Shown here piece after piece: positions 1-32,351 of a stretch of DNA of 43,254 nucleotides (within the stretch, counting starts at the first letter, position 1; every line of letters begins with the position of its first letter). A program made the translations under genes and the position numbers. Source of the DNA: a virus. A model generated the notes under the pieces. The model worked only from the letters and a program-made list of their open reading frames with translations. It searched no databases and was not told where the DNA came from. The stretch lies in IMG/VR virus record IMGVR_UViG_3300009173_002997, positions 1 through 43,254 of that record. One strand, written 5' to 3'.

Positions 1-3000
1 TCTCTGACCTTACTTTCGTACATGAAATAATATGACCAATAAGAATATGTTCCGGTTAAAGAAGCGGTTTCGGCGGTTATCACATCTCCAGCGTTTACCG
101 AAATGCTTGTAGAATTACCAACGTGACTCAGGTAACAATAACCACGTGTTAAAGTCGGGCCAGTAATAGTTTGATTTATGATTCCGTTCACTCTAATTAT
201 GACGTCAGTCACAATACCTGTGCGTGGAGTGCAGTCTCTCACTCTGAATTCTAAAGTCATCGTTCCTGTAGATACGGCGGTATGTTTTAATACTTTATCC
301 CCCATCATCGTCTTGCCGTCGTCTCCACTGCCGATTATTTTCGTGCCATTATTGCCAGCGGCACAATCTACCTCAGAACAATAAAAGGGCTGATTATAGT
401 AATCATAGCAAACTGTCGTTAAGCTGCAGTTGTCTTGACAAACAGTTTCTGGTAATCTAGGCGGTAATTTAGGTTCAACCCAAATTCCGAGCCCTCGCTC
501 GAGTTGGCTACCGTACGCTGAGGCAGCAAATCTGTGAGACCCCAACCTTGTTAACGTGTTCGTCGGCGCCACGATTACGTCAGAAAAAACATGTAATCCT
601 TCTTCTCCATTGGCTACATAAATAAAATCTCCATCTCCCCAAACATCATAATGGCTAGGCAAGAACCCCGCAGTATGGTGGGCCCCCGTACTATTTTCTA
701 GCGCAGTTTGATCAGCTCCAACGTGAGCAAAAGATGTGCCATCAAAAGAAAAAATATTTACTGCGCTGTCGTCAGCGACATACCCCGTGCATGCGTAAAT
801 ATAGTTTTCATCCCCCCAAATCTTTTTCACATTCCTCGTGCGTGATGTTTTTATACTATCCTTAAGAATCAAAGATACTCCGTCAAAAACGAAAGCATGT
901 AATCCAGAATTATTACCCATATAAATGTATTGCCCGTCACTCCAAACGCCATCTGCACCCTGTTCGTCAGATAAAGCTGACATAGTTTTGAAAGTTAAGC
1001 TCCCGGCGTTATCGACGGAATAAACATATAACCCACTATACGCATCTGGATCGACTACAGCGCTGTTATCGCCGCCTTTGAGGGTTGCGTAAATATAAGT
1101 TCCATCTCCAGTAATATTTCTAAACCCTTCTTCCGCTCCAACCGACGCATTCGGGAAAGTTCCTTGAAGCGAAGCGGTAGATACGTTAGTTAGAATACCA
1201 TTATCATCAACGGAATAGACTTCTATCCTAGAGTCTCCAGTTGTTGGCACTGAGGGGTCGATACAATTAAAACAACCATTAGCTACATAGACGAAACTTC
1301 CATCCCCCCAAACCCCACAAGCTGAACCACCGCCAACGTGAGAACTTTTATGCGTTAGATTCCCCACGCCATCATCAGAGTAAACATGTAGACCATTGCT
1401 TTCGTAAGTCACGTAAATAAAATTATTTTGACCGTTTGTAATGTCTTTATCTCCCCAAACTGCGGTCGCCTCTGCGAAGTTATTCGCGAGTGCCCCGGAA
1501 GAGCTGGTTATCCCAGTATCGTCAGAATCTACAGGAGTTATTCCCCCAGCCTCACTAACAGAATAAGTTTGTACGCCAGCTCGACCATTAGCAATATAAG
1601 CAATTCTCCCCACAGGCTTAGCTGTTGTTGTCGTAGTTGGCTCAGCGGTTGTCGTCGTCGGATAAGGATTCCATCCTCCCGAACAACTACTGCATGAATT
1701 GCACAAATACCAAGATAATTGATCAGTAACGTCGACGGGTATTGTCAAAGCCGGATAAATACTAATAGTTGAGGGGCAACCACTTCCTTCGGTAATGCTT
1801 AAAATAGTATGATAATATGTCCCCGCATACGACCCGCTATCGACCTTTAAATATATACAGTCCTTTTCTTTCCAAGTCGTTTGTATTTGGGTTTGCGTCG
1901 AAGGCGTGTCGCAGAACTTAAGTACGCTACTTCCTATGGGGTAAGTATAAGCGCCACTACCGCCAGAGAGGTCGACAACGTACTGAGATCTATTTTCTGC
2001 ATTTTCTGGGCAAAAATTTTGATTACAAACATTACCGTAACAATCAGAAAGGTTTGTTGTCGCTTGAGATATGTCTGTATAATAAGTGCTCATTATTATA
2101 TCTGCACCCCACCTTGTTGTGTCAACATTTCCCGTGGGATTTATGTTACCGCTTTGGAATGGAATTATAACATTTCTTTCTGTATTTTCTGAATTATCTC
2201 TTACGATTATCCAATCCGTATTACCAGAATTAGAAATGTCATCAGCGGCTCCAGAAGGAATATATCCTATAATTAGTACTGCGTGGCCCTTCGCCTTTCC
2301 GGACCAATAGGGGGTGGCTGCAATCATTTGGGTGTAAATTTCACCATTATCGTAGTCTACCGTGACTTCGTCATTAATGTGATAATAGCCAATTCCATCT
2401 CCTATCGCAGCTGAGGTAGTCTGTTTCTCTAGCGTATGCGTTGTGTTCGGAAAGTTTGCTGGCATAACGACTGGGGCAATAGGCTGTATACTCCACCCCT
2501 GCATATGCGCGATGACGGTTCTTCCGTCGTCTATTTCTGTCCTTATTGTTTCCCAAGTTATAGCTGGGTTTACCCCCGCAATCATATAATTTCCGTCTAA
2601 CATTCCATCTAGCGAATTATCTATCCAATGTCGGGGAAGAATTCCTTGAGGCTGTTCTGGCACCTCTAGCGGAAGTTCTACGTTAGACGGATAAGAGGTG
2701 GCGGGGTGAAGTGCGCCCATATGAAAAACCATTCCAATAACATTGTCGTATCCGGCAACCCTATAAAAATCTTTTAACCCCCTGTATGCGCCCATTACGC
2801 TCGTTCCTAAATCGCTTTCATCCTCAATTAATCCATCTCCGATTCTTGTCCCCGCCGGAGAAGGCTGAGTTACATCTTCGGAAGAGTTACTGGTATTCAT
2901 AAACCACCCAAAGTCTGTTAGCTCGCAAGCCCCAACAGTCGCAGGATTTATTGAGTAAAAAGATGGAATTTGATTAACCTGAGGTCTCCATATAGGTCCG

Positions 3001-6000
3001 TCTATCAAATAATCTCCCCATCCATGCCCCCCTCCTTTCGTTGATGATTCGTTCCATTTTATTGTACCGTCAATTCCTATAGAATCTTGGCCAAGTATAC
3101 CGCCGTCGATCTTATCGTCTATTCCATGTAGATGCCCGTAAGATTTATCTGGTAAAGCTAAATTACCTTGCGTATTTAAATGCCCCAGCTGAGAAGCGGC
3201 TGAAGCTGGAGAGCTCCAAGCGTAAAAACCGTCACTATTACCTACGCTAGATTCCGATATGTACAAGCCCGTGATAGGTCCGGTCGTATTTACGCTAGTT
3301 CTTTCGTAGAATTTAGGTTGATTCCAGTTTGGCACATTTCCTTCAACAAAGATCGTCGGAGCAACTATAACCTGTACGCCAGCGGTTTTATAGTTTGAGG
3401 TGGCAGACAGAAGAGTATTGCTACTGTCCACCAACGCCACATAAATTGTATGAGTCCCTTTAGTAAGTTCTGTAATCGTAGCGGTATTTCCCGAGAGGAC
3501 TTGGTTCCCTCCCGCAGCCCCACTTGCTGGAAAAGGTGTATCGATTCGCCAAGCCCAATGGTCATGAGCATTATTTACATCGACTACGCTAACTTTTAAT
3601 TCCGGCACATTACCCAACGAGTTGTAGGTTGGAAAGTCTGGCTTGGTTATGGATATCCTCAATTCTGGCGCGGGAGTAGTAGTCGTTGGAGCAGCGGTTG
3701 TAGTCGGCAGTGGAGTAGTAGTAGTAACGGGACATGGAACATTGGAGTCTTTTTCGTCCCACAATCCACTTTGTTTTTTGTAAAAATTTGTGATACTTCC
3801 TTCTTCGTCTACTTTTATCCAAAAGTCTCCGTTTAAAGCGCATACTGGGTTAACTTTAGAAACGTACAGCTCTCCCGTTCCCCCGGGGCACCCTCCCTTA
3901 CAAATAGTTACCTTGTCTCCGTTGACTACGCTATTTAATACAGAAACGTCACACAGGGGTTCTATGTTTATAAAATCATTTACGATACTAATTATTCTTA
4001 CTTCCGCAGAGACCCTTTTGTCGCATCGTTCGTCTGACGAAGTCAGACAATAGATGCCATCTTCTTCGATGCAACTCGTGACCGTTGTGGGCGCTGGCGT
4101 AGTTGGGGCTGCCGTCGTCGTTGTCGTTGCTCCTTGACTAGCTCCATCGTTCCATTTATGAACTATAATGCCCCCACCTACCGCAGCGGTATAAACGAAA
4201 TCACTACTGTCTCCCAAAACGTCAACCGCTGGCCATGACGCCCCATTATTTGGGTCTGCATAGTGAGCTGAATCTGACGCTAATAGATTAAGGCTTCCAT
4301 TGTTTTGGTTTACTCCGTACGCTAGGAGCCCTCCTGCATAGTTCGCTACAAATAAATACGCTCCCTTACTCCATATTTCGTAAGCGTAATGCGCTGAACC
4401 CGATTGAGCGTTTTCAATATGATTGGCCAACAAGGTTAACGTTCCACTGCTTGTCGAATATACATTTATGCCACCCGACATATTCGCAGAATATATAAAA
4501 TTACCATCTCCCCAAACGTCTAGTATAGCCTCATTGTTTACGTCCACATAAGTGCTTGTGTTTGTGAATGTGTTTGTCGTTGAATCTATAGAATAAACAT
4601 CTATTCCATTATATCCATTAGCTAAATAAACATAGGTCCCACTAGACCAAACTCCGTAAGCGTGGCTACCTGTGGGCGCAAACCTTGTCACAAAATTTAA
4701 ATTAGAATCATATACACCAAGACCAAAAAGGTCCTCAGCGGCATAAAGGTAATTATCGTCTTGAAACAAATTTAGAGCCATTGTCGCCCCAGACACGCTG
4801 CTGCTTCCTCCGGCAGTTAGAAGACCATTTGCGTCCACGGTATATATTTGTATTCCGTCTAACCCATTCGCAACATATATGTCGTTTCCTGAATTCTTTT
4901 TACCCCAAATACCAAGAAATGTTTTCGTTGAATATGGAATTTGGTGCAGCTCAGTTAGAAAACCTTGCGCGTCTTTACTGAAAACGTATAAGCCTCCATC
5001 TGTGCCTGCGCCAGAATCTACGGCGTAAACAAAGTTGTCGTTAGAATATACCCCAATACAATTGGATAAAAATCCAGATTGCTGCACGTAATCTAATGAA
5101 GCTGATGAAGAAGGCGTCGCAGTTGTGGTTGTAGTCGTTGTTCCGCTGGTTACCGCACTAAAAATGCCGGATCTTTGATTCACCAGACAATCTCTCATTC
5201 TGCCGCTTTGACCGCTTGTGAACATGTTCATACAGGCATCATCAGTATAATCCATATAGTTTTCCCACATATCTGGGTCAGCTAAATTTGGACAAGTATC
5301 CTTAGATTCCTGTGGACAGCCAATGTTATACATGCCCGAAACTGGAGTATCACTTACCAAGTCGTCTACCTCACAATTTCCATCTCCCCATATATGAAAT
5401 AAATTAAGATAATGCCCAACCTCATGTGTCGCTGTCCTTCCGAGATTATAAGGGGCGCCGCCGCTCCCCAGTCCGGGTAAAGATGAAGCGCTAATAACTA
5501 TTCCGTCTGAAGCGGGCAACCCTCCGGGGAATTGTGCGTACCCCAATATCCCTCCGTCAATTAAACAAACCCATATATTTAAAAACGCCGTTGGATTATG
5601 AACATCGCTGCCGCCGGTGGCAGCATATTTCATACTGTCATCAGCTAAAAATATTTCTGATGTTGTTACTCTGTTTATGTCTGCCGCGCTCCAAGAAAAT
5701 TGAATTTGTGTATCTATGTTTTTGCTAGCCCATCTAGCTGGATCATTTCCATGAGTATTCCTGAAGTCGGCATTTAATACGTCTATTTGCCCTTGCAGTA
5801 TAGAAGGGTCTAGCGTTGCTTGCTGCGCGCTATCCACAATAACATGATAATATACTTTAATTTCATAAACAGGATGCGAGGAGAAGGGGCTATTTCTTTT
5901 TTCTTTTATTCTGTCTCTAGTTTTTAATTCTTGAGCAATGTAGTCTTCTTTAAAATTAGGATTTTTTTCAATATACTTACTTAACACCTTGGTCGTGGCG

Positions 6001-6083
6001 CAGACATGAACGTCCTCTACGTAAGGATCACTCCACGGTAGAGTTACGTGCTCGTCTTTCGGTATGTTGTTTGATTCTTTCAT
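1..6083 (-). CDS. Giant virion protein, partial: M43 pappalysin-like protease plus two beta-propellers
   Basis: The frame is open from ATG 6083 to the window edge (at least 2027 codons), so the C-terminus is missing. Residues about 60-310 look like an M43 (pappalysin/cytophagalysin) zinc metallopeptidase: HEVGHYLNLFH at 220-230 fits HExxHxxGxxH except that the Gly is Asn227, and a Met-turn (YMDY, Met277) follows before a C-terminal GQxxRM. Residues about 330-645 and 1490-1870 each contain seven blades of a WGDG..YVAN..G..VYS type, so each is probably a seven-bladed propeller. Thr/Pro-rich linkers separate the domains. Between the propellers, Cys1053, His1267 (GHAVLIIGY) and Asn1297 (RDNS) could form a papain-like site, which is speculative. 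The start lies 4 nt after the stop of the 3753-aa gene. It is probably a secreted or virion adhesin with proteolytic capacity. The domain calls come from motif reading, not a search. Confidence 0.85.
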   Translation of the reverse strand, partial: MKESNNIPKDEHVTLPWSDPYVEDVHVCATTKVLSKYIEKNPNFKEDYIAQELKTRDRIKEKRNSPFSSHPVYEIKVYYHVIVDSAQQATLDPSILQGQIDVLNADFRNTHGNDPARWASKNIDTQIQFSWSAADINRVTTSEIFLADDSMKYAATGGSDVHNPTAFLNIWVCLIDGGILGYAQFPGGLPASDGIVISASSLPGLGSGGAPYNLGRTATHEVGHYLNLFHIWGDGNCEVDDLVSDTPVSGMYNIGCPQESKDTCPNLADPDMWENYMDYTDDACMNMFTSGQSGRMRDCLVNQRSGIFSAVTSGTTTTTTTATPSSSASLDYVQQSGFLSNCIGVYSNDNFVYAVDSGAGTDGGLYVFSKDAQGFLTELHQIPYSTKTFLGIWGKKNSGNDIYVANGLDGIQIYTVDANGLLTAGGSSSVSGATMALNLFQDDNYLYAAEDLFGLGVYDSNLNFVTRFAPTGSHAYGVWSSGTYVYLANGYNGIDVYSIDSTTNTFTNTSTYVDVNNEAILDVWGDGNFIYSANMSGGINVYSTSSGTLTLLANHIENAQSGSAHYAYEIWSKGAYLFVANYAGGLLAYGVNQNNGSLNLLASDSAHYADPNNGASWPAVDVLGDSSDFVYTAAVGGGIIVHKWNDGASQGATTTTTAAPTTPAPTTVTSCIEEDGIYCLTSSDERCDKRVSAEVRIISIVNDFINIEPLCDVSVLNSVVNGDKVTICKGGCPGGTGELYVSKVNPVCALNGDFWIKVDEEGSITNFYKKQSGLWDEKDSNVPCPVTTTTPLPTTTAAPTTTTPAPELRISITKPDFPTYNSLGNVPELKVSVVDVNNAHDHWAWRIDTPFPASGAAGGNQVLSGNTATITELTKGTHTIYVALVDSSNTLLSATSNYKTAGVQVIVAPTIFVEGNVPNWNQPKFYERTSVNTTGPITGLYISESSVGNSDGFYAWSSPASAASQLGHLNTQGNLALPDKSYGHLHGIDDKIDGGILGQDSIGIDGTIKWNESSTKGGGHGWGDYLIDGPIWRPQVNQIPSFYSINPATVGACELTDFGWFMNTSNSSEDVTQPSPAGTRIGDGLIEDESDLGTSVMGAYRGLKDFYRVAGYDNVIGMVFHMGALHPATSYPSNVELPLEVPEQPQGILPRHWIDNSLDGMLDGNYMIAGVNPAITWETIRTEIDDGRTVIAHMQGWSIQPIAPVVMPANFPNTTHTLEKQTTSAAIGDGIGYYHINDEVTVDYDNGEIYTQMIAATPYWSGKAKGHAVLIIGYIPSGAADDISNSGNTDWIIVRDNSENTERNVIIPFQSGNINPTGNVDTTRWGADIIMSTYYTDISQATTNLSDCYGNVCNQNFCPENAENRSQYVVDLSGGSGAYTYPIGSSVLKFCDTPSTQTQIQTTWKEKDCIYLKVDSGSYAGTYYHTILSITEGSGCPSTISIYPALTIPVDVTDQLSWYLCNSCSSCSGGWNPYPTTTTAEPTTTTTAKPVGRIAYIANGRAGVQTYSVSEAGGITPVDSDDTGITSSSGALANNFAEATAVWGDKDITNGQNNFIYVTYESNGLHVYSDDGVGNLTHKSSHVGGGSACGVWGDGSFVYVANGCFNCIDPSVPTTGDSRIEVYSVDDNGILTNVSTASLQGTFPNASVGAEEGFRNITGDGTYIYATLKGGDNSAVVDPDAYSGLYVYSVDNAGSLTFKTMSALSDEQGADGVWSDGQYIYMGNNSGLHAFVFDGVSLILKDSIKTSRTRNVKKIWGDENYIYACTGYVADDSAVNIFSFDGTSFAHVGADQTALENSTGAHHTAGFLPSHYDVWGDGDFIYVANGEEGLHVFSDVIVAPTNTLTRLGSHRFAASAYGSQLERGLGIWVEPKLPPRLPETVCQDNCSLTTVCYDYYNQPFYCSEVDCAAGNNGTKIIGSGDDGKTMMGDKVLKHTAVSTGTMTLEFRVRDCTPRTGIVTDVIIRVNGIINQTITGPTLTRGYCYLSHVGNSTSISVNAGDVITAETASLTGTYSYWSYYFMYESKVR

Positions 6084-6087: not shown

Positions 6088-9000
6088 TTATGTTCCGCAG
6101 AAATCGCAACCGCACGTCCCGCCGCTTTGGCCTGTTGCGCACGGGGAAGTGAGTCTCAAGCCGGTGGTCGCGCCACCAAGGGCTTCCCATTCGTCAAACC
6201 AGTTTATGTCAGCGTCGTTAACGTCCCATGGGTCAGCATTGGTTTCGCTACCCGTGGGTCCCGATCCAGCCGAACCCATGCCGGTGCCATATGTATACTT
6301 AGCAAAATTTGGAATAAATATACAACCCGCTGCCGCTTCTCCGCCACATGACTCTCCGATGCTCCATCCTGACCAATTGGTGGAGTTTTCTATGCCGTTA
6401 ACTAAATTTGAGAAGTCGCAGAAATAGAATTGTTTATCTACCCCGTTTTCTTGCACAAACTGCCCGCCAACGCCATCACAAATATGCCCCATGTAAACAA
6501 TCGGGGTGGGTATGGGCATCGGTGTCGTGGTTAAGCCGCCGCCGCCTGCAAGTACGTATCTTCTTACCGTGCTCTCATCGCAACAGCCCCCAGAGGGCGG
6601 CTGGGAAATTTCTTCGCAGCCGGGGCAGTTGACGAAAGCGTTGCACCACTCTACGGATGTAGCGTTTGTTCCGGTAGCTTCTTCCGGACCAAACCAGGGC
6701 GACCCGAGAGCGGGATTGGCTGAATTATACGGGCATTCTGGATTCGACTGATATTCAAACACGGGATCGCCATTGGCATCGAGGGTGCCCGTATCCTCCA
6801 CCAAAGACGCTATGTATGGTGAGTAGGTAGAGGAAGCCGTTGAGCCACCGAAATCATCCACCGATGAGATAACGCACATTTGGTTATTGCCCGCAGCCGC
6901 AGTCATCCACATATAATAAGTAATTGGGGTGCTACCCGCTAGCGGAGCGGGGTTCGTGTGAGACCATACCTGTTTTCCGTTAAACCGCTCGTCCCCAGCG
7001 GCCCCAACGTTTTGCCACCCCTCGTTTGGTTCGTCGGGCTGGGTATAACTCGCTGGCACGGTAGTTAAAAGCCAATTTCCATCCAAGTCACCGAGCTGAA
7101 GCCCGCCCGCTGGCAACTGACCACCGCCCGCACTCGCGCCGTCCATGCCATCTATACAGACATTCGAGCATACGTAGACCGGATTCTCACATACACAAGT
7201 GCAACCCAGATCTCCCTTGGTGCAATCTTCTCCTTCTTGATCGTGACCCACGTCGTACGTACATTTTTCAACTTCAGGAGTTTCACAACATGGGTCAGGC
7301 AGTGCTCCGCATTGCGTTGGGCGAGATTCTGGAGCAGCTCCATTCGCCATCCATTCGCAGCACGACATATCGTCCACGATGTTTCCGTCAACGTCAACTT
7401 TTGTCATGAATTTAATTTTATCATAAGCTGCCCGTAAGGCGGGGCCGCCGCCGGGCTGACCGAATCCAAAGCCCATGCTCCTCAGGCTGGCGTCGATGGG
7501 GTTCACAGCTCCTTGATCGGCAAACGCATCTACGACGTCTTGGTCCCCTCCTCCAAGCCTTCCGGCCCGGAAATAATTAGCCGCAGAACTTGTACTGATT
7601 GCCTCGACGAAGAACGGGCCATCTTCGCATCTGTTCACTATCAACTCGTTGGTGGAAACCCCCGAGGCGAGATCAGAGGTCACGACCCAAGTATCATCTG
7701 TCAGGCCAAAATTCGGGGTCCCGTTATATTCCAAATAATAACAATGCGTTGCGCAGTCGCACTCTACCCAGCCTTGGTTGGATCTGTATTCCCATTCATC
7801 AAGTCTTCTTCCGCTGCCCTGCCCCGGCGCTTCGTCAGCGACAGCTTGGGCGGGTGACTTCATGGATGGAGCCGTGGGTCGGCTATCTCGATCATCAGAC
7901 CATGCCCGCCCACCTGCTGCGTGATACGGCTCAATTTGATTAATGTAAGTGTAATCTTGCACTCTGTAGCATTTATCTTCTCCGGTGACATTGATCGGTT
8001 GTACGTAACTTCCATCATCTGGGGCTACGCCGTTGCATGAGGTCTCTTGCCCCATTGCCCAATCTTTTTTCCCATAGCCTTTTCTCTTAATTTTTTGTGT
8101 TAGATGGTTTTGGTCTTCTTTGTTGGGGTAGAAGTCTCTATCCCATATGGGGATATCATTTTTGTTTAGGTCCCCCTTGTTCGGCGAGAAGGCTGCGTCT
8201 GGATTTTCTAAATCCGCTTCGTAATGACTATCCCTAGCGGGTTGCGAAATATCTGCGCAATTAAAATCAATGTGTCTCATATCACCGCCCCCAGCATCTT
8301 CTCCAAGCTGATCGACGCAGTCGTTCATATAAACAATATAATTTGTATCTACCGGCAGCAACTGATAAGTCGGAGGGAAAGAATCAACACCATGGTCTCC
8401 CCTAAACTTCCAGAAGCAAAAACATGGATCACTTGCCCATGAGCCAAGGCCCGTCGGAATCGGGTCACCTATATCACCGAGGGGACCATCGATTACAGCG
8501 TTTACACTGTCTTGCCCACTATTACAACTGGGATTCTGAAAATTGTAACTCGGTACGAATAATTTACCGCCATTCCCATTTACTTGGATCATTGTATTCA
8601 CCGCGGGCTTATTCGCGTTTGGCATGAAGGCGTCTCCCAACGCGTCGCCGAGAAGATCAACACCGGTGGCGTGTGCGGCTCCACCCACAATCAAAAATTT
8701 AGCTGTTGGATGGGTCGAAAGATAACCATTAATTTTTTTTGCCCAATGGATATTTCTTTTATTGATTGCATCATCTTCAAGGTTGATTCCAACAATGTCG
8801 ATACCTTCATCACTACACGCCTTGAATAATTCCATCCATTGATCTACCATCCTGTCCCCCGGCCAAGCTTCTGAGCAACAGAATCCACGTTCATCTTTAT
8901 CGGTAGGGTTGTCAGAAAATTGGCCACCGTGAGCGTGGGAGCCTATATCCCACGTCCCCATAGTGTGAAGCATTGCGTGATATTCTTTTGTGCCGGGTCC

Positions 9001-12000
9001 ACCTTTGGTAGCTAGCCATTCATTTAATATATCTTGGTGTGTTTTTACAGTGGCGCCTTCGGGAATAAGATCGTCTTTTATGGAAGTAGGTAAAGTGTAT
9101 TTACCTGTAGGCTTGCCGTCGGGGCCGAGTAACGGCATGTCACTTATATGCTCAAGGAATAATACATTAATATTTAAAGCTGCTATATTTTGCGTAATCC
9201 AATCAATGAAAGCAGGAATGCTATGCGAAGCCTCTGCGATCATAATGCCCCCTTGAACGGATCCTCCTGTTTGACCCGCTGACTGCGTGCTTCTTACGAT
9301 TGAAGCTTCCATAGAATAAACAAGTTGGCTGTTGGCGGGATTCTCACCATCTCCTTCAGCGCCGGAACATATAAGCGCCCTAGCACCTCTGTTGTCGACC
9401 ATAGTTACTGTTAATATGTTGTTCATTAGTCCAGCCGAGGTTGCTTGCGTGTTGTTGGCTCCTGCCGGAAGCTCTATTTTTATCTGAAAAGTTCTGGTTG
9501 CGCCTTCTCCAGAGCCCGGAATGGCCATAAACACCACAGGCGTTCCGCCTACCTGATTATTCCCGCGCGTCATGCTCGAAGTGAAGGCGAAACTCGCTCC
9601 AATTGGACAGACCGGGTTAGCGGTTGAGCCGTCCGCCGAGAAATGTACACCGCACTCTGCGGATCCATCTATGGTAGTGAAGGTGATATCGGTTACCATT
9701 CCACTCGCGAGTGTTCCGTCGCGTAACGTACGTATGATCCCGTCGCCAATCTCATTAATGTCGGTACCGTTTGTACCATTGGTGCCCACGGTAAGCGTTG
9801 CGGGGTTGCCAAACCTATCTGGGTCCCACCCCATATATACCGAATCGTCATTATTTATGGTTACGTAATGACCCAACCACGTCGGTGCGCCGACGGCATC
9901 CCATGTAATAACCGGCGTACTGCCGAAGAAATCCGTCGTCGGTGACGACAAAATAACCTCGAAAACCTCATCGCTTTCCGGCAACTGGTCGGGATCGATA
10001 ACAAGCTCAATGACCATAACTTCATCGCCATCATTAAATGTTAGCGTCCCCGTTTTTACAGTTTGTTGACCGAGGGGATTTTCTCCGACCGCGATCAGGT
10101 CATCATCATCGGCAAAAGTATGGTACGGGGTGTTGGTGCCCGGCATCGACACCTCATAATTAACAGTAGCTGTTCCTCGTAATTCGTTAAATCTTTGAAC
10201 ATGAACCTGATGTATGGTCTTTCTCGGGGAGCCGGTTTCGGGATTTATTCGTTGGGGCTCCTTAGCTCCAGTCCCCTCTCTAACTCTCGATTCGTAATCA
10301 GGTAGCCACTCCCACCCCCGCTTCGCGCCGTCCATCACCAAGGTCCTATATGCAAATCTAAAATAAGTAGCTTCAGGTGGAGCAGCTGTTGTCGTAACGC
10401 ACTCCATTTCGCTATGAATATTTGGTTCAGAATTACCGCAACAATCTTCCATGAAGCCGCGCTGGTCATTATGCCCAAGCCCCATCCCATCCCCCGCGTC
10501 AGTCCAAGCTGTGAAGTCGGTTATACTGGTTGCACCAAGAATAGTATCCTGAGGGTCCAGCACAATGCCCCGCGGCGCTTCCATGGCGTTAAAGGTCCTC
10601 ATCGCCTCATTGCTATGTATCCCGCTACAAGCCTTTTTGTTTTGATTTACAAGCACGCCATCAATTTCTAGACTTGGGTCTACGAAAATCCATTCATTTA
10701 GCCCTTCTTCGAATTCCGAGCAGATATCCCCCCGGACACAACAGCTATATCCCTCCGCGAGCAGGGAAACGGGATTAGCCGATATAGAAAAGGCATGGTC
10801 GACGCTTTCGGTGTTCGCGCTCCCCAGATCATCCTTGACATTGAAAAACGTCTTGCACCCAGAAACGGGTGGTATCACTCTGCTTTGCGTACCCCTGAGA
10901 GTTATCGCACTCGGCCCGTACGGCTTGGTTAAATCTTGTTCACTTGCTCCCAACTGCAGGCCCGTGGTCAGGTCTATGTTACTGATGCCCTTCCCAAAGG
11001 AGAGATGTTCTTCAAGCGTTTTTTCGGGGTCGGCTGAAAAATACATCCACCCAGCGCCCCAAGTCACAGATAGGTTGGGGCGTTCACCATACGCCACGAA
11101 GTCGCCGCCCAAATCCGCCTCGTTTCCGCAGATGGGAGCTTCAAAACTGCAGAAATGTTCGTTGTCCTTGAGCATCCGACTGGAGCAATTAAGCTGCGCT
11201 GAAGAAGGCCCACCTGCCCCAATATATGTAGGGAGAAGTCCTCTCACCTGTTCCTTTCCGCCGAGCTCTGCGTCGATTTCAAATCGCACCATCGAGTGCC
11301 AGCCATACCCCTTTAATATTGGTATACCATCCGGCTTGCGCTCCTCCGCCGACGAAGCTTCCACTCTAAGGGCGAAGTTGCTCCAATAGCCGATCTCATC
11401 GTCCCGATTCTCGAAGGTCAATCCGGTAATGATTGGCGGCACTACGCTCTCAAGAATATCAAATTGACTTATATAATTATCGCTTGTCTCACCCGTTGGC
11501 AAACCAGTTGCGGGATCTGTGATTGCCTCATCTCTCTGACCAGTTCGAGCCATTTTTGTTAAATCGCCGGCTTTTGCGCTAAATTTTATAGTAGCCGGGG
11601 AGTTTTGTGGCAAATCAGTTACGGGATCTTCAGCCATGTTGATACACTCATCTCCCGAGAAACACGAACAATTATTGTCTGTGTGTGTAACATTTATTGA
11701 GCTTGAGCTAAAGTTGTCATCATACCATGCGTCGTTGAGTTCCATCTGGGCATAATCGATGGGGTCCCAACACGGGTCATCGTCGCACCATAATTTTTCC
11801 GGCTTGGTGCCGCCCTCAGACGTTAGGATGAGGGCTCGCCATTCATAACCATGTTGACTTTCGTACCCGGGCGGATGATCATCTTCATTCCACCGAATCG
11901 TATCACACCCCCCTCTCCTTTCTCCCACGGTCGAATATGGATGGGGCGCATTTGTTACGGTATATTGTAATATGTCGACGGTAAAAGACGGCACGTTGTT

Positions 12001-15000
12001 CGCATAAGGCGTAAGAGTAATCGCTTCCATAGGGTATTCTGTTATATCGGGGAATACACTCCCGGCAAAAAGCGCGTACGAGGGTTTAAGAGAATGAAAT
12101 TCTTCCGCCTTCAGGTCGACAGTTTCGCCGTCGGAAGTGGCAGTAGCTCTAAATTTCAGTCTAGGTTCTGCCGCCCATCCGCCGAGCGCATCAGCGATAT
12201 ACCAAAGGTACGCGCCACCACCCCCCGAAAAATTACCACCGCCTTCTCCGCCGTCCCCTTGCATGGCCGCGTTCAGCGTCAGTTGATTAACAGACTGAGC
12301 GTTGGAAGTGTCAAACTGATGCGAGGCTCGCTCATGACCGGTGCATGCGGACCCTTCGTAACAACACGCCTCGTAAATAGCAATTGCCTCCCATTTCCCA
12401 CTATGACTAAAGTCCACCAGCAAAGTCTGTTCCGTCCCCATGTCGCTTCGTTTTTCGTCTTTTCTCAGGGTGCTAACTTTAACCATTCTTACACGCGGCA
12501 TTCCTGCTAGCGGATTGGAGTGCTCTACGCCCATCCGGTCTGTGAGTTTTTCCGGGTGTAACGCGTCCCCTTCGACGCCCTCCAATAATATAGTCTTAGT
12601 GGTGCGACCAAGGAGCTTTTCGCTCAATAAATCTAGTTGCACTTCTCGCAGCCACAAGCCGCTAGGCGGCCCTGAATACGGTGCCTTCCCTTTTGCTGTT
12701 ATTCCTGTAAAATATATTCTATCTCTTTCATCGTCTGAGCCGCACCTTATTGCGCTGTAAGCCTTTTGGTCTCCCGCGCAAGTTGGGTCGTCAACCTCCG
12801 CCGCGACTTCCGGGAACATCTCTCGCCAACCCCCTTCCGCAGACATGACTGGCCCGGGGTGAGAAACAACGGGAACACGCAACCCTAAATGTTCACAGTC
12901 ACCAATCAAAGGTTTAACTGGGTATTTAATAGTTCCCGGCACGGTTTTTAGAAAGCCATGGGGTAATTCGGCTATTGCTTTTTTGATAGCATCTTTTTTA
13001 TCGGGCGCGCCCTCCGCGTCCTCGCTATCAACATACATCGGAGCCTCCCATTCAGGGTCGAACGGCCCAAGCGGCAAGCCGTCCACCGGACCTACATTTG
13101 CCGGATTCAACACCGGATCCGGATAATTGTACCCACACTTCAAGAAAAACGAAGTGGCGGTGTCGCCGAGCTGGAACGATCCGCCGGAGCTGCTCATTAA
13201 GTCGGTGTGCGAAACTGTTGGATTTGAAGGGTTTAACCGAAAATATATTCTCTGGCCTGCGCTACCTAAATCACCTAAAACACCAATATCGGTGCAGTTA
13301 TCAGTCATTGATCCACATATCTCTGCTGAGTACCATTGAGGACAAATAGAGCAGGAAGACAAGTCCCAATCCCCACTCCCCACATATTGGGTAACGGTAA
13401 GGTTTCGTTCTGCAAATCTAAAATCAGGGTCAAAAAAGCTTGGGTCAGCCCCGTCATTGAAGCGGTTGGCGTTGATCACTGCATTCGCCCTAACGGGGTT
13501 ATTCGGATCTGGAACACCAAAGCGTGTACCAACCCACATTACGTCATCCTTGTTCGCTGGATGACTAATATCTACGGTGCCATATGCCCAGTACTTGGCT
13601 CTTGCGTTCTCGCCGCCGACCTCGCCGGGGCCGAGTCCGACTGGATCGCCTAGAGCGGTCTTCAAGGTGTCGTAAACCGTTTGACTTGACGATGACAGAA
13701 GAGATGTCAGGAGTGGGTTGCTTGGATCAAACCTTTGAAAAGTGGTCCACCTTGGTTCCGGCCATGCCGCGAAATCCGGAAGAGTGCTAGCGCCTGATGG
13801 CATCAAGTAAAAATCTTCCCCAGTAACCGCACCAGCTACGCCGTTAAGAGTACTATCTTTGTCAAAAAATAGCTCTGATGCAATGGACGGTATGGGTGCC
13901 AAGCATGTGTCTGTTATAAATGGAGAATTATTTAAACCGTCATTACCCGATAAGTAACAAGCTATTTTGCTTGTTGAGCATGCTACGATTGCTGAAACTT
14001 TTTCAAATTTATGCTCTGTTGCGGAGTACACTTTAACAAATGGCACAAGACCAAGCCAGCCTTCGACTGATTTATCCGCATTGATTTGACATGATTTTGT
14101 AAATTTAATTCTATTACGCTCATCCATTGCCTCTTCGTAAGTATTATATAACGCAAAATATTCGTTGGCATCTGCTCCGACAATCCCGAGTCCTACACTT
14201 ACATAATAAGTTTTACCCAGTCTAAATTCTGGACCAAGATGTCTCATGATTTTTCCTGTATTCACTCGTTCATCAATCATGATCATGTCTCCAGTCTCAA
14301 GGCAATGACCTTTGTGATGGCAGGAAGAATTCAACGCACCTCCCCCAACCACCTCTTTTCTTACTAAGGTAGAAACGCCCCAATCGTGTTCTTCGCCATA
14401 TCTTTTCTGAAGATCGTACGCCTCGTCTGAAGACTCGTGATCAATCGATAGTCTTAATGGACCTATAGGAACTGGGGTCGAATTGTGCCAAAGGCAAAAT
14501 TGCGGGCCGCCGGTCGTCCACGAGCCCGGCGGTACCAACCCGAGGTTATTAAGAGCCATTGGGTCTACGCCATTTAAGGCATCCCCTCTAGTGTAATGTA
14601 AAGTAGCGTGGGTATCGGAGATCTTTCTCGGCCATAAAACCGGCGGTGGGCTACAGTGGGAGCTGCTACAATTGGAAGCCTGCGACTTGTCGCCGGCGCA
14701 TCGGCCACGATAATCCACGCCGTGGCCGTCGTCATCGGATATGACATAGCATCCAAAAAAATCTTCCAAAGCCATCAGCGGGGGCAGATCGCCACACTCA
14801 TCCCCAGCAATTGTAGGCCAATTCTCGTATACCACCGTAGATTCGCCGGTTACGAAACCGTGGGCGCAGGGCGCGCCGTCTTGGAACAATGGATCCTCAA
14901 AACATTTAATTGTGTAAATTGCATTTGTATCCGGAAAGGCGGTCCCATTCCCGTGAACTTGTCCGGCTTGTCCGGTCGTCATTTGAAATCTTTGTGGTTC

Positions 15001-17349
15001 GTTCAAAACCGACGTTGGGCTTGTCAATCCCAGTTCAATCTCCCATCCTTCATGATTGGGGCATGGCTTGAATAAGTGAGCGTCACCTTTACAATCAAAG
15101 CCTACATATAGGTCCCGTCTCCATGACGACGTCAAACCAGATATAAAACTTCCAATGCCGAAATCGAAACTAAGCGGCTTCACTTGTATCTCGGCGGCAT
15201 CACGAATGTCTACTACGCCCCGTGTATGAAGCTTGCTTGGTAAAGTTCCGATCGGAGTTATGTTTTGCACTTCAACGTCTTCTGATTGAACTGAGCCATC
15301 TCCGGTAACGCCAGTTATTCTTATGATGTCACCGATTTCTAGATTGCCGCAATTATTTGTGCAATTAATTTCAATACTAGTATCTCCGTAACTTGTCGCG
15401 GCCCTTAAAGTTCCTACGGGGGACGTCCCACAAACGAATACAAAATCGTCTCTCACAAGACTAACGGATAATGCTGGTATTATTCTATACTCTAAAATAC
15501 AGGAACCTTTATCTTCTATTTGTGTTATTGTGTGATAATAAGTTGTTCCATCTTTTTGTATGTATATGCAGTCTCCCAGTTTAGCGGTATCAATTAAAGT
15601 TTGAGGTCCATATTCGTTACAAAATTCTAAAGTATTTGCTTCTGCGGCGGCGTCGGCATTCAAAAATCCCACAGAATCAGCCTCACTTTCTTCGCAATCA
15701 GCGGAAGTGCATGCAGCCCAGTCTTCTATGTTAGTTCCCCATGTAAATTCATCACACCCCGGACACCCATCTTTCCCTAATACGCCTTGGTAGCCTTGTC
15801 CTGCGTAAGCGCCAGATATACCTTGTTCTCCAGACTCGCCTTGTTCCCCTTCCTCACCCACTGTACCTTGGTAGCCTTGATATCCTAAGCCTTGGTACCC
15901 TTGGTAACCTTGGTCACCTTGATAACCTTTTTGGCCAACATTAATTAAAAATCCATCAAAAGCAGCGTCGATTAATTGAGTTGTTCCGTTAGAATATGTA
16001 ACGTTCTTAAATCTAAACCAAACTTCAAAATAATCCGATGAACCGTTTGCTTCAGCTATGCCTCCAGTTTCCACGGATGCGTGAGCGATGTGGCCTGCGT
16101 CTGGTGCTGTATAAAAATTTTCCGCTACGATTGTACCCGTAGGGGCCGTGGTTGTTCCCGCCGTGCCCGATGCATTTTTTACAATTCGGATATCAATATG
16201 CTTACCGCCCCCGCCGTAGTTAGGGCTACTATATATACCGCTACCGCCTATCTTAGCGTGAAGTTTGTATTTTCCTGCCGTGGTTGGAGTAAATCTACTT
16301 GTGCTAACATCATAGTTAGAAGCTGTATCAATTAATTCATTATCAACATCCGCTTTATGCCAGAGTGGGCATCCCTCGCTTGAGCAGTTAGTGGTATTGT
16401 CGGTAAAATCGTAATAAGTAGATGTATTTTCGTCAGCAGAGAATACAACTTCTGGACCCCCTTCGCCTTGGTAACCCTTGTTTCCTTGATACCCTTGCGC
16501 ACCGTCAGTCCCATCTACGCCGTCAGCCCCATCTACGCCGTCAGCGCCATCTACGCCGTCAGCACCACCATTTCCTTGGTGCCCTTGGTATCCTTGGTTT
16601 GCCACAGCGCCATCTAATCCTTGATATCCTACACCTTGATATCCTTGGTAACCTTGCGCGCCGTCATTCCCATCAGCGCCACCATTCCCTTGATATCCTT
16701 GATACCCTACCCCTTGATACCCTAGCCCTTGATAGCCCTGATAACCTTGCTCCCCATCCGCGCCGTACGTGCCGTCGGCACCGGTCATTTTTAAAACACC
16801 ACCCATAAGGTCGTGGGTAGCACAATAATAATACATGCTATCATTTATGCCGTTGGGCACATCCCAAATTAAATATGCTGCCCCGTTACCATCGGTTCCT
16901 ACTTTTTGTAATTCATTACTTGAACCACCCGTATAGGTGTTATTGTTACTCCACGTTCCGTCAGCTCCGGTGGATAAGGAAAAAATATGGCCAGAATTAG
17001 AAGAGTCGTTTAGGTTGAAATTGTATTTAAAATTCGGAAGAAGCTTTAAGGACGGTTGTTGTATTCCGTCGATAAAATATTTATTAGCGTTTACGGTTAC
17101 TATGAATTCTATTTCTGCTAACCCTGTTTCGCCTTGATTTCCCTGATAGCCTTGATAACCTTGGTATCCTTGGTCACCGTCTTCGCCGCTTATTCCCGCT
17201 ACCCCGGTTGATCCTTGGGACCCCTGAGGCCCTACCCCTCCAGCGCCAGAGCCAGAAGAAGACGACGACGAGGAGGAAGTACTGGAAGCGCAATATAATT
17301 CGCTCCCAGTAACTAAATTTGTAATACAAACTTTGTAATTTGTAGTCAT
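6088..17349 (-). CDS. Giant 3753-aa modular virion protein (fibre/adhesin) with toxin-like TIKI/ChaN-type domain
   Basis: This is a single 3753-codon gene; an AAAAGGAG motif sits just before its ATG. Order by approximate residue: Ser-rich N-terminus (23-33); collagen-like GxY with many YQG triplets (40-75); cupredoxin-like domain (78-190) ending YYYCATHDLMGG; further collagen-like triplets (190-295); C1q/jelly-roll-like sandwich (300-470); collagen-like triplets (471-530); a Cys-containing module (570-643) also found in the neighbouring giant protein; a long Cys-rich region I cannot assign; two Calx-beta-like domains (about 2326-2690); a TIKI/ChaN-like domain (about 2700-2920) with AEASH, LEH and GGAAHATG motifs; then a Cys- and Gly-rich C-terminus. 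Its size and modularity fit a receptor-binding fibre or other virion appendage. Base composition is visibly richer in G+C than the rest of the window. Existence as a gene is certain. Placement in the virion is inference from context. Confidence 0.9.
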   Translation of the reverse strand: MTTNYKVCITNLVTGSELYCASSTSSSSSSSSGSGAGGVGPQGSQGSTGVAGISGEDGDQGYQGYQGYQGNQGETGLAEIEFIVTVNANKYFIDGIQQPSLKLLPNFKYNFNLNDSSNSGHIFSLSTGADGTWSNNNTYTGGSSNELQKVGTDGNGAAYLIWDVPNGINDSMYYYCATHDLMGGVLKMTGADGTYGADGEQGYQGYQGLGYQGVGYQGYQGNGGADGNDGAQGYQGYQGVGYQGLDGAVANQGYQGHQGNGGADGVDGADGVDGADGVDGTDGAQGYQGNKGYQGEGGPEVVFSADENTSTYYDFTDNTTNCSSEGCPLWHKADVDNELIDTASNYDVSTSRFTPTTAGKYKLHAKIGGSGIYSSPNYGGGGKHIDIRIVKNASGTAGTTTAPTGTIVAENFYTAPDAGHIAHASVETGGIAEANGSSDYFEVWFRFKNVTYSNGTTQLIDAAFDGFLINVGQKGYQGDQGYQGYQGLGYQGYQGTVGEEGEQGESGEQGISGAYAGQGYQGVLGKDGCPGCDEFTWGTNIEDWAACTSADCEESEADSVGFLNADAAAEANTLEFCNEYGPQTLIDTAKLGDCIYIQKDGTTYYHTITQIEDKGSCILEYRIIPALSVSLVRDDFVFVCGTSPVGTLRAATSYGDTSIEINCTNNCGNLEIGDIIRITGVTGDGSVQSEDVEVQNITPIGTLPSKLHTRGVVDIRDAAEIQVKPLSFDFGIGSFISGLTSSWRRDLYVGFDCKGDAHLFKPCPNHEGWEIELGLTSPTSVLNEPQRFQMTTGQAGQVHGNGTAFPDTNAIYTIKCFEDPLFQDGAPCAHGFVTGESTVVYENWPTIAGDECGDLPPLMALEDFFGCYVISDDDGHGVDYRGRCAGDKSQASNCSSSHCSPPPVLWPRKISDTHATLHYTRGDALNGVDPMALNNLGLVPPGSWTTGGPQFCLWHNSTPVPIGPLRLSIDHESSDEAYDLQKRYGEEHDWGVSTLVRKEVVGGGALNSSCHHKGHCLETGDMIMIDERVNTGKIMRHLGPEFRLGKTYYVSVGLGIVGADANEYFALYNTYEEAMDERNRIKFTKSCQINADKSVEGWLGLVPFVKVYSATEHKFEKVSAIVACSTSKIACYLSGNDGLNNSPFITDTCLAPIPSIASELFFDKDSTLNGVAGAVTGEDFYLMPSGASTLPDFAAWPEPRWTTFQRFDPSNPLLTSLLSSSSQTVYDTLKTALGDPVGLGPGEVGGENARAKYWAYGTVDISHPANKDDVMWVGTRFGVPDPNNPVRANAVINANRFNDGADPSFFDPDFRFAERNLTVTQYVGSGDWDLSSCSICPQWYSAEICGSMTDNCTDIGVLGDLGSAGQRIYFRLNPSNPTVSHTDLMSSSGGSFQLGDTATSFFLKCGYNYPDPVLNPANVGPVDGLPLGPFDPEWEAPMYVDSEDAEGAPDKKDAIKKAIAELPHGFLKTVPGTIKYPVKPLIGDCEHLGLRVPVVSHPGPVMSAEGGWREMFPEVAAEVDDPTCAGDQKAYSAIRCGSDDERDRIYFTGITAKGKAPYSGPPSGLWLREVQLDLLSEKLLGRTTKTILLEGVEGDALHPEKLTDRMGVEHSNPLAGMPRVRMVKVSTLRKDEKRSDMGTEQTLLVDFSHSGKWEAIAIYEACCYEGSACTGHERASHQFDTSNAQSVNQLTLNAAMQGDGGEGGGNFSGGGGAYLWYIADALGGWAAEPRLKFRATATSDGETVDLKAEEFHSLKPSYALFAGSVFPDITEYPMEAITLTPYANNVPSFTVDILQYTVTNAPHPYSTVGERRGGCDTIRWNEDDHPPGYESQHGYEWRALILTSEGGTKPEKLWCDDDPCWDPIDYAQMELNDAWYDDNFSSSSINVTHTDNNCSCFSGDECINMAEDPVTDLPQNSPATIKFSAKAGDLTKMARTGQRDEAITDPATGLPTGETSDNYISQFDILESVVPPIITGLTFENRDDEIGYWSNFALRVEASSAEERKPDGIPILKGYGWHSMVRFEIDAELGGKEQVRGLLPTYIGAGGPSSAQLNCSSRMLKDNEHFCSFEAPICGNEADLGGDFVAYGERPNLSVTWGAGWMYFSADPEKTLEEHLSFGKGISNIDLTTGLQLGASEQDLTKPYGPSAITLRGTQSRVIPPVSGCKTFFNVKDDLGSANTESVDHAFSISANPVSLLAEGYSCCVRGDICSEFEEGLNEWIFVDPSLEIDGVLVNQNKKACSGIHSNEAMRTFNAMEAPRGIVLDPQDTILGATSITDFTAWTDAGDGMGLGHNDQRGFMEDCCGNSEPNIHSEMECVTTTAAPPEATYFRFAYRTLVMDGAKRGWEWLPDYESRVREGTGAKEPQRINPETGSPRKTIHQVHVQRFNELRGTATVNYEVSMPGTNTPYHTFADDDDLIAVGENPLGQQTVKTGTLTFNDGDEVMVIELVIDPDQLPESDEVFEVILSSPTTDFFGSTPVITWDAVGAPTWLGHYVTINNDDSVYMGWDPDRFGNPATLTVGTNGTNGTDINEIGDGIIRTLRDGTLASGMVTDITFTTIDGSAECGVHFSADGSTANPVCPIGASFAFTSSMTRGNNQVGGTPVVFMAIPGSGEGATRTFQIKIELPAGANNTQATSAGLMNNILTVTMVDNRGARALICSGAEGDGENPANSQLVYSMEASIVRSTQSAGQTGGSVQGGIMIAEASHSIPAFIDWITQNIAALNINVLFLEHISDMPLLGPDGKPTGKYTLPTSIKDDLIPEGATVKTHQDILNEWLATKGGPGTKEYHAMLHTMGTWDIGSHAHGGQFSDNPTDKDERGFCCSEAWPGDRMVDQWMELFKACSDEGIDIVGINLEDDAINKRNIHWAKKINGYLSTHPTAKFLIVGGAAHATGVDLLGDALGDAFMPNANKPAVNTMIQVNGNGGKLFVPSYNFQNPSCNSGQDSVNAVIDGPLGDIGDPIPTGLGSWASDPCFCFWKFRGDHGVDSFPPTYQLLPVDTNYIVYMNDCVDQLGEDAGGGDMRHIDFNCADISQPARDSHYEADLENPDAAFSPNKGDLNKNDIPIWDRDFYPNKEDQNHLTQKIKRKGYGKKDWAMGQETSCNGVAPDDGSYVQPINVTGEDKCYRVQDYTYINQIEPYHAAGGRAWSDDRDSRPTAPSMKSPAQAVADEAPGQGSGRRLDEWEYRSNQGWVECDCATHCYYLEYNGTPNFGLTDDTWVVTSDLASGVSTNELIVNRCEDGPFFVEAISTSSAANYFRAGRLGGGDQDVVDAFADQGAVNPIDASLRSMGFGFGQPGGGPALRAAYDKIKFMTKVDVDGNIVDDMSCCEWMANGAAPESRPTQCGALPDPCCETPEVEKCTYDVGHDQEGEDCTKGDLGCTCVCENPVYVCSNVCIDGMDGASAGGGQLPAGGLQLGDLDGNWLLTTVPASYTQPDEPNEGWQNVGAAGDERFNGKQVWSHTNPAPLAGSTPITYYMWMTAAAGNNQMCVISSVDDFGGSTASSTYSPYIASLVEDTGTLDANGDPVFEYQSNPECPYNSANPALGSPWFGPEEATGTNATSVEWCNAFVNCPGCEEISQPPSGGCCDESTVRRYVLAGGGGLTTTPMPIPTPIVYMGHICDGVGGQFVQENGVDKQFYFCDFSNLVNGIENSTNWSGWSIGESCGGEAAAGCIFIPNFAKYTYGTGMGSAGSGPTGSETNADPWDVNDADINWFDEWEALGGATTGLRLTSPCATGQSGGTCGCDFCGT
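15780..15945 (-). repeat. Collagen-like triplet repeat tract (third block)
   Basis: This degenerate 9-bp-based tandem repeat encodes Gly-x-y triplets, mainly GYQG and GEEGEQG, at about residues 471-530 of the 3753-aa protein. Tyr-Gln replaces the Pro-rich pairs of classical collagen. Confidence 0.85.
16460..16770 (-). repeat. Collagen-like triplet repeat tract (second block)
   Basis: Repeated ccttggtat-type 9-mers encode GYQG triplets mixed with GADG and GVDG triplets, at about residues 195-300 of the giant protein. Such tracts in phage fibres usually form trimeric stalks. Repeat number is likely to vary between isolates by slippage or recombination. Confidence 0.85.
16511..16564 (-). repeat. 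18-bp tandem repeat, three copies (GADGVD)
   Basis: Three adjacent 18-bp units start with ccatctacgccgtcagc and differ only in the last base. They lie at 16511-16528, 16529-16546 and 16547-16564, inside the collagen-like tract. Near-identity at the DNA level suggests recent expansion. Confidence 0.9.
17125..17240 (-). repeat. Collagen-like triplet repeat tract (first block)
   Basis: This tract encodes GVGPQGSQGSTG-type and GYQGYQG triplets near the N-terminus of the giant protein. It precedes the cupredoxin-like domain and follows the Ser-rich segment. Confidence 0.8.
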
Positions 17350-17374: not shown

Positions 17375-17746
17375 TTAACTATAATCCGCATCCACGCCGC
17401 TGGTAACTTCTGGATGAATTAAAAATTTTCCTTTCAAGATTTTTTCAATATCTTCCGCGCCAGTTAGCGGGAATCTTTCTATATCGTATAATGCTTCCGT
17501 AATGGGAAGCTGAGCAGTTTGAATGGAGGTTAAAAGAATATCTACGAGACCATTTGGGCCATCGTAGATAACGGGGTCTAAATTTACTAAAATATTAGTA
17601 TCAGGATCAGAATATTTGTTTTTTACTACGCCCCTTACTTCATTGCCTGTTAAATCAACAGAATTAAGGCTAGCGTCTAATACCTGTATCCTTATATTAA
17701 AGGTCGAACCTTGGGTTATATTTAGATCTACGTTCTCCGCGCTCAT
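17375..17746 (-). CDS. Small beta-sandwich structural protein (123 aa)
   Basis: The 123-residue product has the pattern ITQGSTFNIRIQV then VDLTGNEVRG, followed by a region ending LPITEALYDIERF. This resembles the small phage proteins with an Ig-like or BppU-N-like sandwich (EQGATF..LTGY..R) that sit next to tail fibre or baseplate genes in many tailed phages. There is no signal peptide or membrane segment. It lies 25 nt upstream of the 3753-aa gene and is probably co-transcribed with it. An adaptor, or a small subunit attaching the giant protein to the virion, is plausible. That role is inference from family likeness and position; no catalytic motif is visible. Confidence 0.75.
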   Translation of the reverse strand: MSAENVDLNITQGSTFNIRIQVLDASLNSVDLTGNEVRGVVKNKYSDPDTNILVNLDPVIYDGPNGLVDILLTSIQTAQLPITEALYDIERFPLTGAEDIEKILKGKFLIHPEVTSGVDADYS

Positions 17747-31392: not shown

Positions 31393-32351
31393 TATAAAAC
31401 TTTCGTATCGTATGCGTATTGTAAATCTATTTGTTTGTAAAAACACCCACTAAAGAATATTTTTTTAATAACTCTTTCGGCTTCCCTTCTTCCTCCAACG
31501 AAGAGGAATTGGATATGTGGATATTTTTGTATTAGTTCTCGTACGTTGTGAAATATGTATTCTGGCGTTGCTTTTATTTTTTTTGATATATGAGGTAAAT
31601 ATTTAAAGCTAACCGCGTGACTTAACGTGTCTTCTATCAAAATAATTAAATTGATATTTTCATCTTCAGCTCTTGCTATTTCTTTTTCAAATCTTTCTAA
31701 ATTTTTAACGCTCATGGTGGAAATAAAGTCAGCTAAAGATTTTCTTTCTATATAACAATTGCATGTCAATTTAGGTTCACTAAAAGTATAGTCCCCTACG
31801 GATAGCGTCGTGGATTTAGTGCGATAATCATCGAACTTTAAGGGTCGCTGCTCCCTTGTGTCTATGTGTATAGAATACTGCGGCTTTGCATACTCCTTAC
31901 CTTCAACTATTTCTGTCGGTAATTGATATTTGTTTTTGAACCCCATCTCTTCGCACACCTTATAATACCCATCTAAAATATCTCTCAAGTATTGAATGGG
32001 CGGCGAAAGTATTGTTCTAAGCTCCACCTGAGTTGGGGTATATACAAGCCCTTTGTCATTTTTTCTTTTTAATAGAGTGTTTCTGCAATAGGTCTTGGCT
32101 TCTTTCTTCGGGGCCGATTTAAGCCAAAGCCTAAGATTGGTTCTGGAGTTAAAGTCTGTCGAAAAATACTGTTCTAAGGATTTATACTTGATAATGTCGC
32201 CGTCATGAAGGTCATGCCTTGGGAAATATTTTTGATAATACCCTACGACCCTTAAATCATGAGCCTTAATGTGCGCGTGTAGTTGTCTGTGTGTTTCGAA
32301 TTGTTTTTGACAAGCTTGGCAAGTTGGTTCTGGCGCGTCGGTTTTACTCAT
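31392..32351 (-). CDS. ERCC4/XPF-type nuclease with N-terminal C2H2 zinc finger (319 aa)
   Basis: Residues 11-31 form a classical C2H2 finger: C-x2-C-x3-F-x5-L-x2-H-x3-H with Cys11, Cys14, His27 and His31. Residues about 158-290 match an ERCC4 nuclease domain: IDTREQRPL (Asp164), VGDYTF (186-190) and IERKSLADF, giving the GD-x(n)-ERK-x3-D core with ERK at 202-204. XPF-family nucleases cut branched DNA and junctions. The gene overlaps the upstream gene by 8 nt and TerL by 1 nt (TAATG). Coupling to TerL suggests resolution of replicative DNA branches before or during packaging, analogous in logic to T4 endonuclease VII. That role is inference. The middle region (32-157) is unassigned. Confidence 0.88.
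   Translation of the reverse strand: MSKTDAPEPTCQACQKQFETHRQLHAHIKAHDLRVVGYYQKYFPRHDLHDGDIIKYKSLEQYFSTDFNSRTNLRLWLKSAPKKEAKTYCRNTLLKRKNDKGLVYTPTQVELRTILSPPIQYLRDILDGYYKVCEEMGFKNKYQLPTEIVEGKEYAKPQYSIHIDTREQRPLKFDDYRTKSTTLSVGDYTFSEPKLTCNCYIERKSLADFISTMSVKNLERFEKEIARAEDENINLIILIEDTLSHAVSFKYLPHISKKIKATPEYIFHNVRELIQKYPHIQFLFVGGRREAERVIKKIFFSGCFYKQIDLQYAYDTKVL

Follow-up and report, generated by a model that had tools for sequence, protein, structure and literature searches.

Most of the enzymes that phage virions are known to carry are polysaccharide depolymerases or peptidoglycan hydrolases. Such virion-associated enzymes act on the host surface at entry by cutting polysaccharide or peptidoglycan, and the words 'protease' and 'proteolytic' are absent from the text of a review of them (PMC6116005). 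Metalloproteases of subfamily M43B (the lower or unicellular pappalysins), such as ulilysin and mirolysin, are secreted cellular enzymes of ~300–360 aa. For mirolysin, latency, a calcium switch and specificity for basic residues at P1΄ have been established and proposed to hold group-wide; in promirolysin, Cys23 is bound to the catalytic zinc and Arg21 occupies the specificity pocket, and Asp289 in S1΄ sets the family preference for cleavage before Lys or Arg (PMC6949598). Here, we analyzed a stretch of 43,254 nucleotides (the window), comprising positions 1 to 43,254 of the IMG/VR virus record IMGVR_UViG_3300009173_002997. We found that one of its genes, P0001, begins with a complete M43B ('lower pappalysin', ulilysin-like) metalloprotease zymogen that occupies residues 1 to ~312. 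The features of this gene that concern the protease are as follows.

3..6083 (–): the whole M43-bearing open reading frame (ORF), P0001; the frame is cut by the left edge of the window and encodes at least 2027 aa.
5886..6083 (–): pro-segment of the M43 zymogen, residues 1–66, by homology to other M43 pro-segments and from the model aligned with proulilysin.
6000..6002 (–): Cys28, the predicted cysteine-switch residue, equivalent to mirolysin/ulilysin Cys23 in the alignment.
5151..5885 (–): M43B catalytic domain, residues 67–311, from the PDB sequence search, Pfam, the AlphaFold model and Foldseek.
5394..5426 (–): zinc-binding motif HEVGHYLNLFH, residues 220–230, with H220, E221, H224 and H230 invariant in 40 sequences.
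5238..5261 (–): NYMDYTDD, residues 275–282, containing the Met-turn, Tyr-switch and S1΄ Asp by alignment (roles per PMC6949598).

An initial annotation of the sequence had placed an M43 domain at positions 5000–6083 on the basis of HEVGHYLNLFH (220–230), YMDY (276–279) and GQSGRMR (291–297), all of which are present in the translation of 3..6083 (–). The family assignment was confirmed by a significant match of P0001 to Pfam PF05572 Peptidase_M43 (2.4e-13; 50.7 bits, where the cut-off is 23). The top match in the PDB sequence search was proulilysin (8cdb; 1.3e-50, P0001 residues 67–311), and mirolysin matched at ~1e-49. We modelled the zymogen with AlphaFold from an alignment of 40 window, viral and bacterial sequences, and obtained a mean pLDDT of 88.4 and a pTM of 0.90. 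When compared using Foldseek, the predicted fold overlaid ulilysin (1.5e-26, TM 0.82–0.84 normalised to ulilysin), proulilysin (TM 0.80/0.83 over 305 columns, a length indicating that the pro-segment was included in the alignment) and promirolysin. The combination of HExxHxxxxxH and the MDY turn appeared in none of 20,000 shuffles of the P0001 protein, which, together with the Pfam and proulilysin/mirolysin matches, indicates that the motifs are not due to chance. With its pro-segment, the domain covers 5148..6083 (–); the remainder of the interval first proposed, 5000–5147, encodes a Thr-rich linker and then the start of a beta-propeller, and lies outside it.

The zinc motif HExxHxx[GND]xxH is represented by H220, E221, H224, N227 and H230. 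The suggestion in the initial annotation that Asn227 may alter activity was not borne out, since ulilysin also has Asn at this position (HEIGHWLNLYH), mirolysin has Asp, and Asn occurs in about half of the 40 aligned homologues. Across the 40 rows there is no variation at the three zinc His, at the general base Glu221 or at Met277 and Tyr279, and Met277, Tyr279 and Asp282 correspond to mirolysin Met284, Tyr286 and Asp289. In the alignment, C237/C264 and C256/C284 are in register with the mirolysin disulfides 243–271 and 262–291, as are D241 and D245 of the acidic double-calcium segment, for which calcium binding is predicted. In the model, the pro-segment contains predicted helices at residues 30–40 and 42–62. 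Cys is found at the position of Cys28 in all aligned homologues whose fetched stretch reaches there, and the cysteine-switch motif RxCG takes the form HVCA. Each testable feature of M43B, as judged from sequence and model, was thus found in P0001, and cleavage before Lys or Arg is itself predicted.

The P0001 head therefore has in common with ulilysin and mirolysin the fold with its pro-segment, zinc motif, Met-turn and Tyr-switch, as well as two disulfides, the S1΄ Asp and the cysteine switch (PMC6949598). It differs from them in heading a phage protein that exceeds 2000 aa and whose N-terminus, inspected by eye, shows no signal peptide, and in having CA for the CG motif and His for Arg21. 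Cytophagalysin of Cytophaga likewise combines an M43 zymogen with many further extracellular segments; however, it is a secreted bacterial protein and is not encoded in a phage fibre locus (PMC11674741). Among viral structures, the strong M43 matches in BFVD belong to giant viruses of eukaryotes; the top ones, M43/ulilysin proteins of Tupanvirus (A0A6N1NN82), Sylvanvirus (A0A3G5AHV3) and Yasminevirus, have the same fold but a different domain architecture. A weak BFVD match, A0A6J5P205, represents the automatically annotated M10 matrixin-like proteins of uncultured phages, in which metzincin domains occur in phage proteins; this protein is of another family (M10), has 162 aa and contains no M43 domain.

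The following genes define the setting of P0001.

6088..17349 (–): collagen-like tail-fibre protein P0002, 3753 aa (Pfam Collagen 4.7e-16; PHROG tail fibre phrog_6320 3.9e-29).
17375..17746 (–): 123-aa protein resembling an L-shaped tail fiber protein assembly family (phrog_3304, 6.9e-05).
18307..19464 (–): probable major capsid protein, from position and conservation only.
27466..29520 (–): portal protein (phrog_2739, 1.4e-06).
29566..31446 (–): terminase large subunit (phrog_2, 5.1e-23; phage terminase matches).

The terminase and portal identify the record as that of a tailed phage. The late-region position beside a collagen-like fibre, as initially described, was supported by the Pfam Collagen and PHROG tail-fibre matches. 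Upstream of P0001 lies P0002, preceded by the 123-aa assembly-like gene, whose best PHROG is phrog_1084 (6.9e-17, unknown function). P0002 and this upstream gene match phage families of collagen-like tail fibres and L-shaped-fibre assembly (PHROGs 6320, 5073 and 3304), whereas no PHROGs family matched the M43 domain. P0002 ends in TAATAA, with its stop 4 nt before the P0001 ATG and in a different frame, and the two genes therefore look like separate cistrons. The putative capsid protein has 71–86% identity to its counterparts in seven IMG/VR relatives besides the contig described below and 58% in one more, and found no match in PHROGs or in INPHARED or GTDB genomes. As a separate observation on P0002, residues ~2680–2900 resemble TraB/ChaN (Pfam TraB_PrgY_gumN 0.042, below cut-off), and by eye a similar segment occurs in the giant protein of the relative L025.

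A longer relative is provided by the IMG/VR contig IMGVR_UViG_2785510824_000057 (1–32788, minus; loci L003, L016 and L095, hereafter L003), which has the capsid-region genes in common with the window, including the putative capsid protein at 76–79% identity. Its giant protein is encoded by a single frame that stays open for at least 10,929 codons, up to and past the contig end, and that begins with the collagen/cupredoxin-like head found in P0002. Further along are propellers, an M43 domain, LamG-like repeats (by eye), an M10 matrixin domain (Pfam 1.1e-19; MMP-14 match 1e-13), a C39-like domain and long poly-Thr linkers. Collagen-like or fibre repeats and tail-fibre homology are thus found in P0002 and, by fusion, in the L003 giant, and not in P0001. 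Since M43 lies within this collagen-headed frame, protease and fibre are one polypeptide in the L003 phage. The M43 domain of P0001 aligns with L003 residues 2665–2978 (42–45% identity), a Cys-rich module with 3148–3275, the Ig-like and C39-like region with 10266–10812, and the C-terminus with 7000–7155; the two phages thus have modules in common but arrange them differently. At only ~45% identity, both proteins retain the catalytic and disulfide residues, the S1΄ Asp and the Cys switch (HVCG in L003), which argues against a decayed copy. The relatives L018–L025 break before or early in the giant gene; L025 reaches furthest, with 2837 aa.

Beyond the protease, P0001 contains the following modules.

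4149..5057 (–): first beta-propeller-like repeat region, residues 343–645 (Pfam Lactonase, a 7-bladed propeller, 6.9e-11).
2040..3359 (–): tentative C39-like (papain-fold) domain, residues 909–1348, at motif level.
480..1616 (–): second beta-propeller-like repeat region, residues 1490–1868 (Pfam Lactonase 9.8e-05).
6..407 (–): C-terminal module, residues 1893–2026, 37% identical to its L003 counterpart; the frame leaves the window within it.

The repeats of the first propeller are common to P0001 and the L003 giant. The second propeller scored 22.1 bits against a cut-off of 21.7, and it also matches the propeller repeats of L003. Residues 810–1348, comprising the Ig-like and C39-like parts, are 43% identical to the L003 giant (E = 3e-107), and in a separate alignment residues 909–1348 are 49% identical to its C39-like domain. 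The L003 domain contains WCVPTAAA, GHTILIVGY (GHxxLIxGY) and VRDN; at the first of these the window reads WSSPASAA, with Ser replacing the putative catalytic Cys of L003. Pfam C39_2 reached only 0.057, below its cut-off, a PDB search for the domain gave zero matches, and its model, built from few homologues, had a pLDDT of 26. We accordingly keep the C39-like assignment tentative and at motif level. Elsewhere in the late region, a small protein (23512–24015, –) with a lipoprotein-like signal and the C39-like motif CGPEAL...YHWVCF (Pfam C39 0.026, below cut-off) is another possible papain-fold protein.

We further surveyed the occurrence of M43 in viruses. Two alignment-based scans of IMG/VR yielded 13 and 22 M43 loci in overlapping sets; a scan with a single M43 protein as query gave zero matches. 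The loci fall into three types. Large proteins lacking a signal peptide occur in the window, L003, L012/L032, L013, L014, L015, L028 and L029/L030. In L012 and L013 the M43 domain is inserted between the halves of a phage protein, with the joint near residue 197 of an M43-free 393-aa homologue in L028; L028 has its own M43 further downstream, in a 1133-aa protein. The second type, with a signal peptide and a T9SS-like tail, is found in records of large T4-like phages: at L038:7203-11185 a secreted M43 lies one gene after the major head protein, its T9SS-type sorting domain being weak (Por_Secre_tail 5.5e-4, below cut-off), and similar genes are present in L033–L040. The third type, short and lipoprotein-like (L004, L005, L008 and L009), looks like ordinary Bacteroidota-type secreted enzymes and was not used as evidence for virion proteases. 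A terminase was detected in 13 of the 24 M43-bearing virus records, in one case under the family cut-off, and records lacking it may be fragments.

Among genomes with M43 loci, the 54 loci are nearly all from Bacteroidota. In a tree whose bacterial rows were chosen by patterns derived from the window and L003, these two grouped together (100/98) outside the other viral M43s (87/91); this hints at separate acquisitions, which we do not claim given the row choice and that support. INPHARED contained no convincing phage M43. Its single match, MT837139.1 (L002, 'Bacteriophage sp.'), bears a secreted M43 gene and was rejected, since by eye its ORFs resemble trigger factor, RpiB and DUF389 and are apparently bacterial. 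A search of open-access texts found no paper on pappalysin or Peptidase M43 together with phage, which is weak evidence of absence. Overall, the initial annotation held for the M43 family, the late region and the fibre neighbour, and failed for Asn227; the cysteine-switch pro-segment, the L003 giant with its M10 domain, the C39-like domain of P0001 and the M43 domains of other phages are additional to it.

We regard the family, the integrity of the active site, the zymogen architecture, the phage origin and the fibre neighbourhood as established from sequence and model, and from these we infer virion presence, activation route, activity and substrate. We propose, with somewhat better than even confidence, that P0001 places a latent M43B zymogen in a giant fibre apparatus, to be activated outside the cell and to clip host surface proteins before Lys or Arg. 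P0001 would be made latent in the host cell, with Cys28 of the short pro-segment capping the active-site zinc; because the cytoplasm is reducing and poor in calcium, the conserved double calcium site and two disulfides would probably form badly there. P0001 and P0002 would provide the anchor to the virion through their propellers, collagen-like stalk and adhesin-type modules, and would hold the protease at the fibre tip or somewhere along its length. Once lysis has brought the zymogen into oxidising surroundings rich in calcium, the pro-segment would be removed at basic P1΄ sites in TRDRIKEKR, and the active enzyme may trim host S-layer, outer-membrane or adhesin proteins during adsorption. 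Extracellular activation is suggested by the calcium dependence and cysteine switch of mirolysin, and virion location by the fibre locus and the L003 fusion.

Several observations weigh against this proposal. P0001 forms its own cistron, and no attachment domain was identified in its at least 2027 aa within the window; the protein might therefore leave the cell unattached to the virion. The residue after Cys28 is Ala, not Gly, and His26 takes the place of mirolysin Arg21, so that latency could be weaker. The second peptidase-like domain of the same protein lacks the putative nucleophile Cys. Finally, the last part of the ORF lies beyond the window, and the case rests on sequence and a model.

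It is also conceivable, though unlikely, that the protease acts on the phage itself, processing the giant fibre protein in cis or in trans (a P0001/P0002 maturation cut). M43 zymogens excise their own pro-segments and trim termini (PMC6949598), the L003 chain is polyprotein-like in carrying M43 between other modules, and the window already encodes P0001 and P0002 as distinct products. However, the cysteine switch, calcium sites and disulfides fit post-assembly extracellular activity. M43 is also found in two phage proteins that are unrelated to these, have ~850 and 1133 aa and show no obvious processing, and T4-like phages encode it as a secreted enzyme with a signal peptide. Of the two roles suggested in the initial annotation, digestion of a host surface protein is tentatively favoured over maturation of virion adhesins.

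The signal peptides and weak sorting domain of the T4-like M43s, and the status of P0001 as its own cistron, would also suit a soluble enzyme that is released by lysis, or expressed on infected cells, and that breaks down proteins outside the cell (those of the matrix, of competitors or of defence), its gene being host-derived cargo and a neighbour of the fibre by chance. This we consider rather improbable, given that P0001 has propeller and adhesin-like modules along with its great length and apparent lack of a signal peptide, and that its L003 counterpart lies covalently within a collagen fibre protein. It is more doubtful still that the M43 domain has lost all or almost all catalysis and acts as a module for binding a peptide or receptor: the Cys-to-Ser change in the C39-like domain indicates that enzymatic modules do decay in this protein, yet the catalytic and structural residues of M43 are all intact, and Asn227 is the ulilysin residue. 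Misassembly of a bacterial or chimeric sequence onto the phage contig, which might be suspected in a metagenomic-type virus record and in view of the bacterial appearance of MT837139, is hardly credible and already contradicted, since P0001 matches the L003 giant through its M43, Ig-like/C39-like and C-terminal modules, L003 is syntenic at capsid-region genes, and chimeras would not agree independently.

Other genes of the window were noted in passing. An FtsZ/tubulin-family GTPase (24837–25991, –; Pfam PF00091 2.8e-10) lies in the late region, between the portal and capsid genes. Beside the terminase gene, the product of 31392–32351 (–) combines a C2H2 zinc-finger-like N-terminus with an ERCC4-type nuclease domain (1.9e-10). 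By eye, 36–43 kb (–) contains a cluster of sugar-nucleotide dehydratase/epimerase, glycosyltransferase and methyltransferase genes.

The new element here is the phage fibre setting, the M43B family itself being already known. The results suggest that the surface of some phages bears true proteases that cut host-cell proteins. More broadly, and with less than even confidence, there may be a class of phages in which batteries of proteases (M43, M10 and C39-like) are built as latent zymogens into giant virion fibres with lengths from ~4,000 to over 10,900 residues, and are activated extracellularly by calcium and the loss of a cysteine switch to cut the protein coats of hosts. If so, fibre protease batteries would be to protein coats what the depolymerases of tail spikes are to polysaccharides. 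The range of M43 is widened to phage structural loci in several contexts, and the compact domains are open to direct expression and assay. A latent, site-specific (Lys/Arg) metalloprotease on a fibre would represent a different route through a protein coat, and being built as a zymogen would account for its production without harm to the producer cell.

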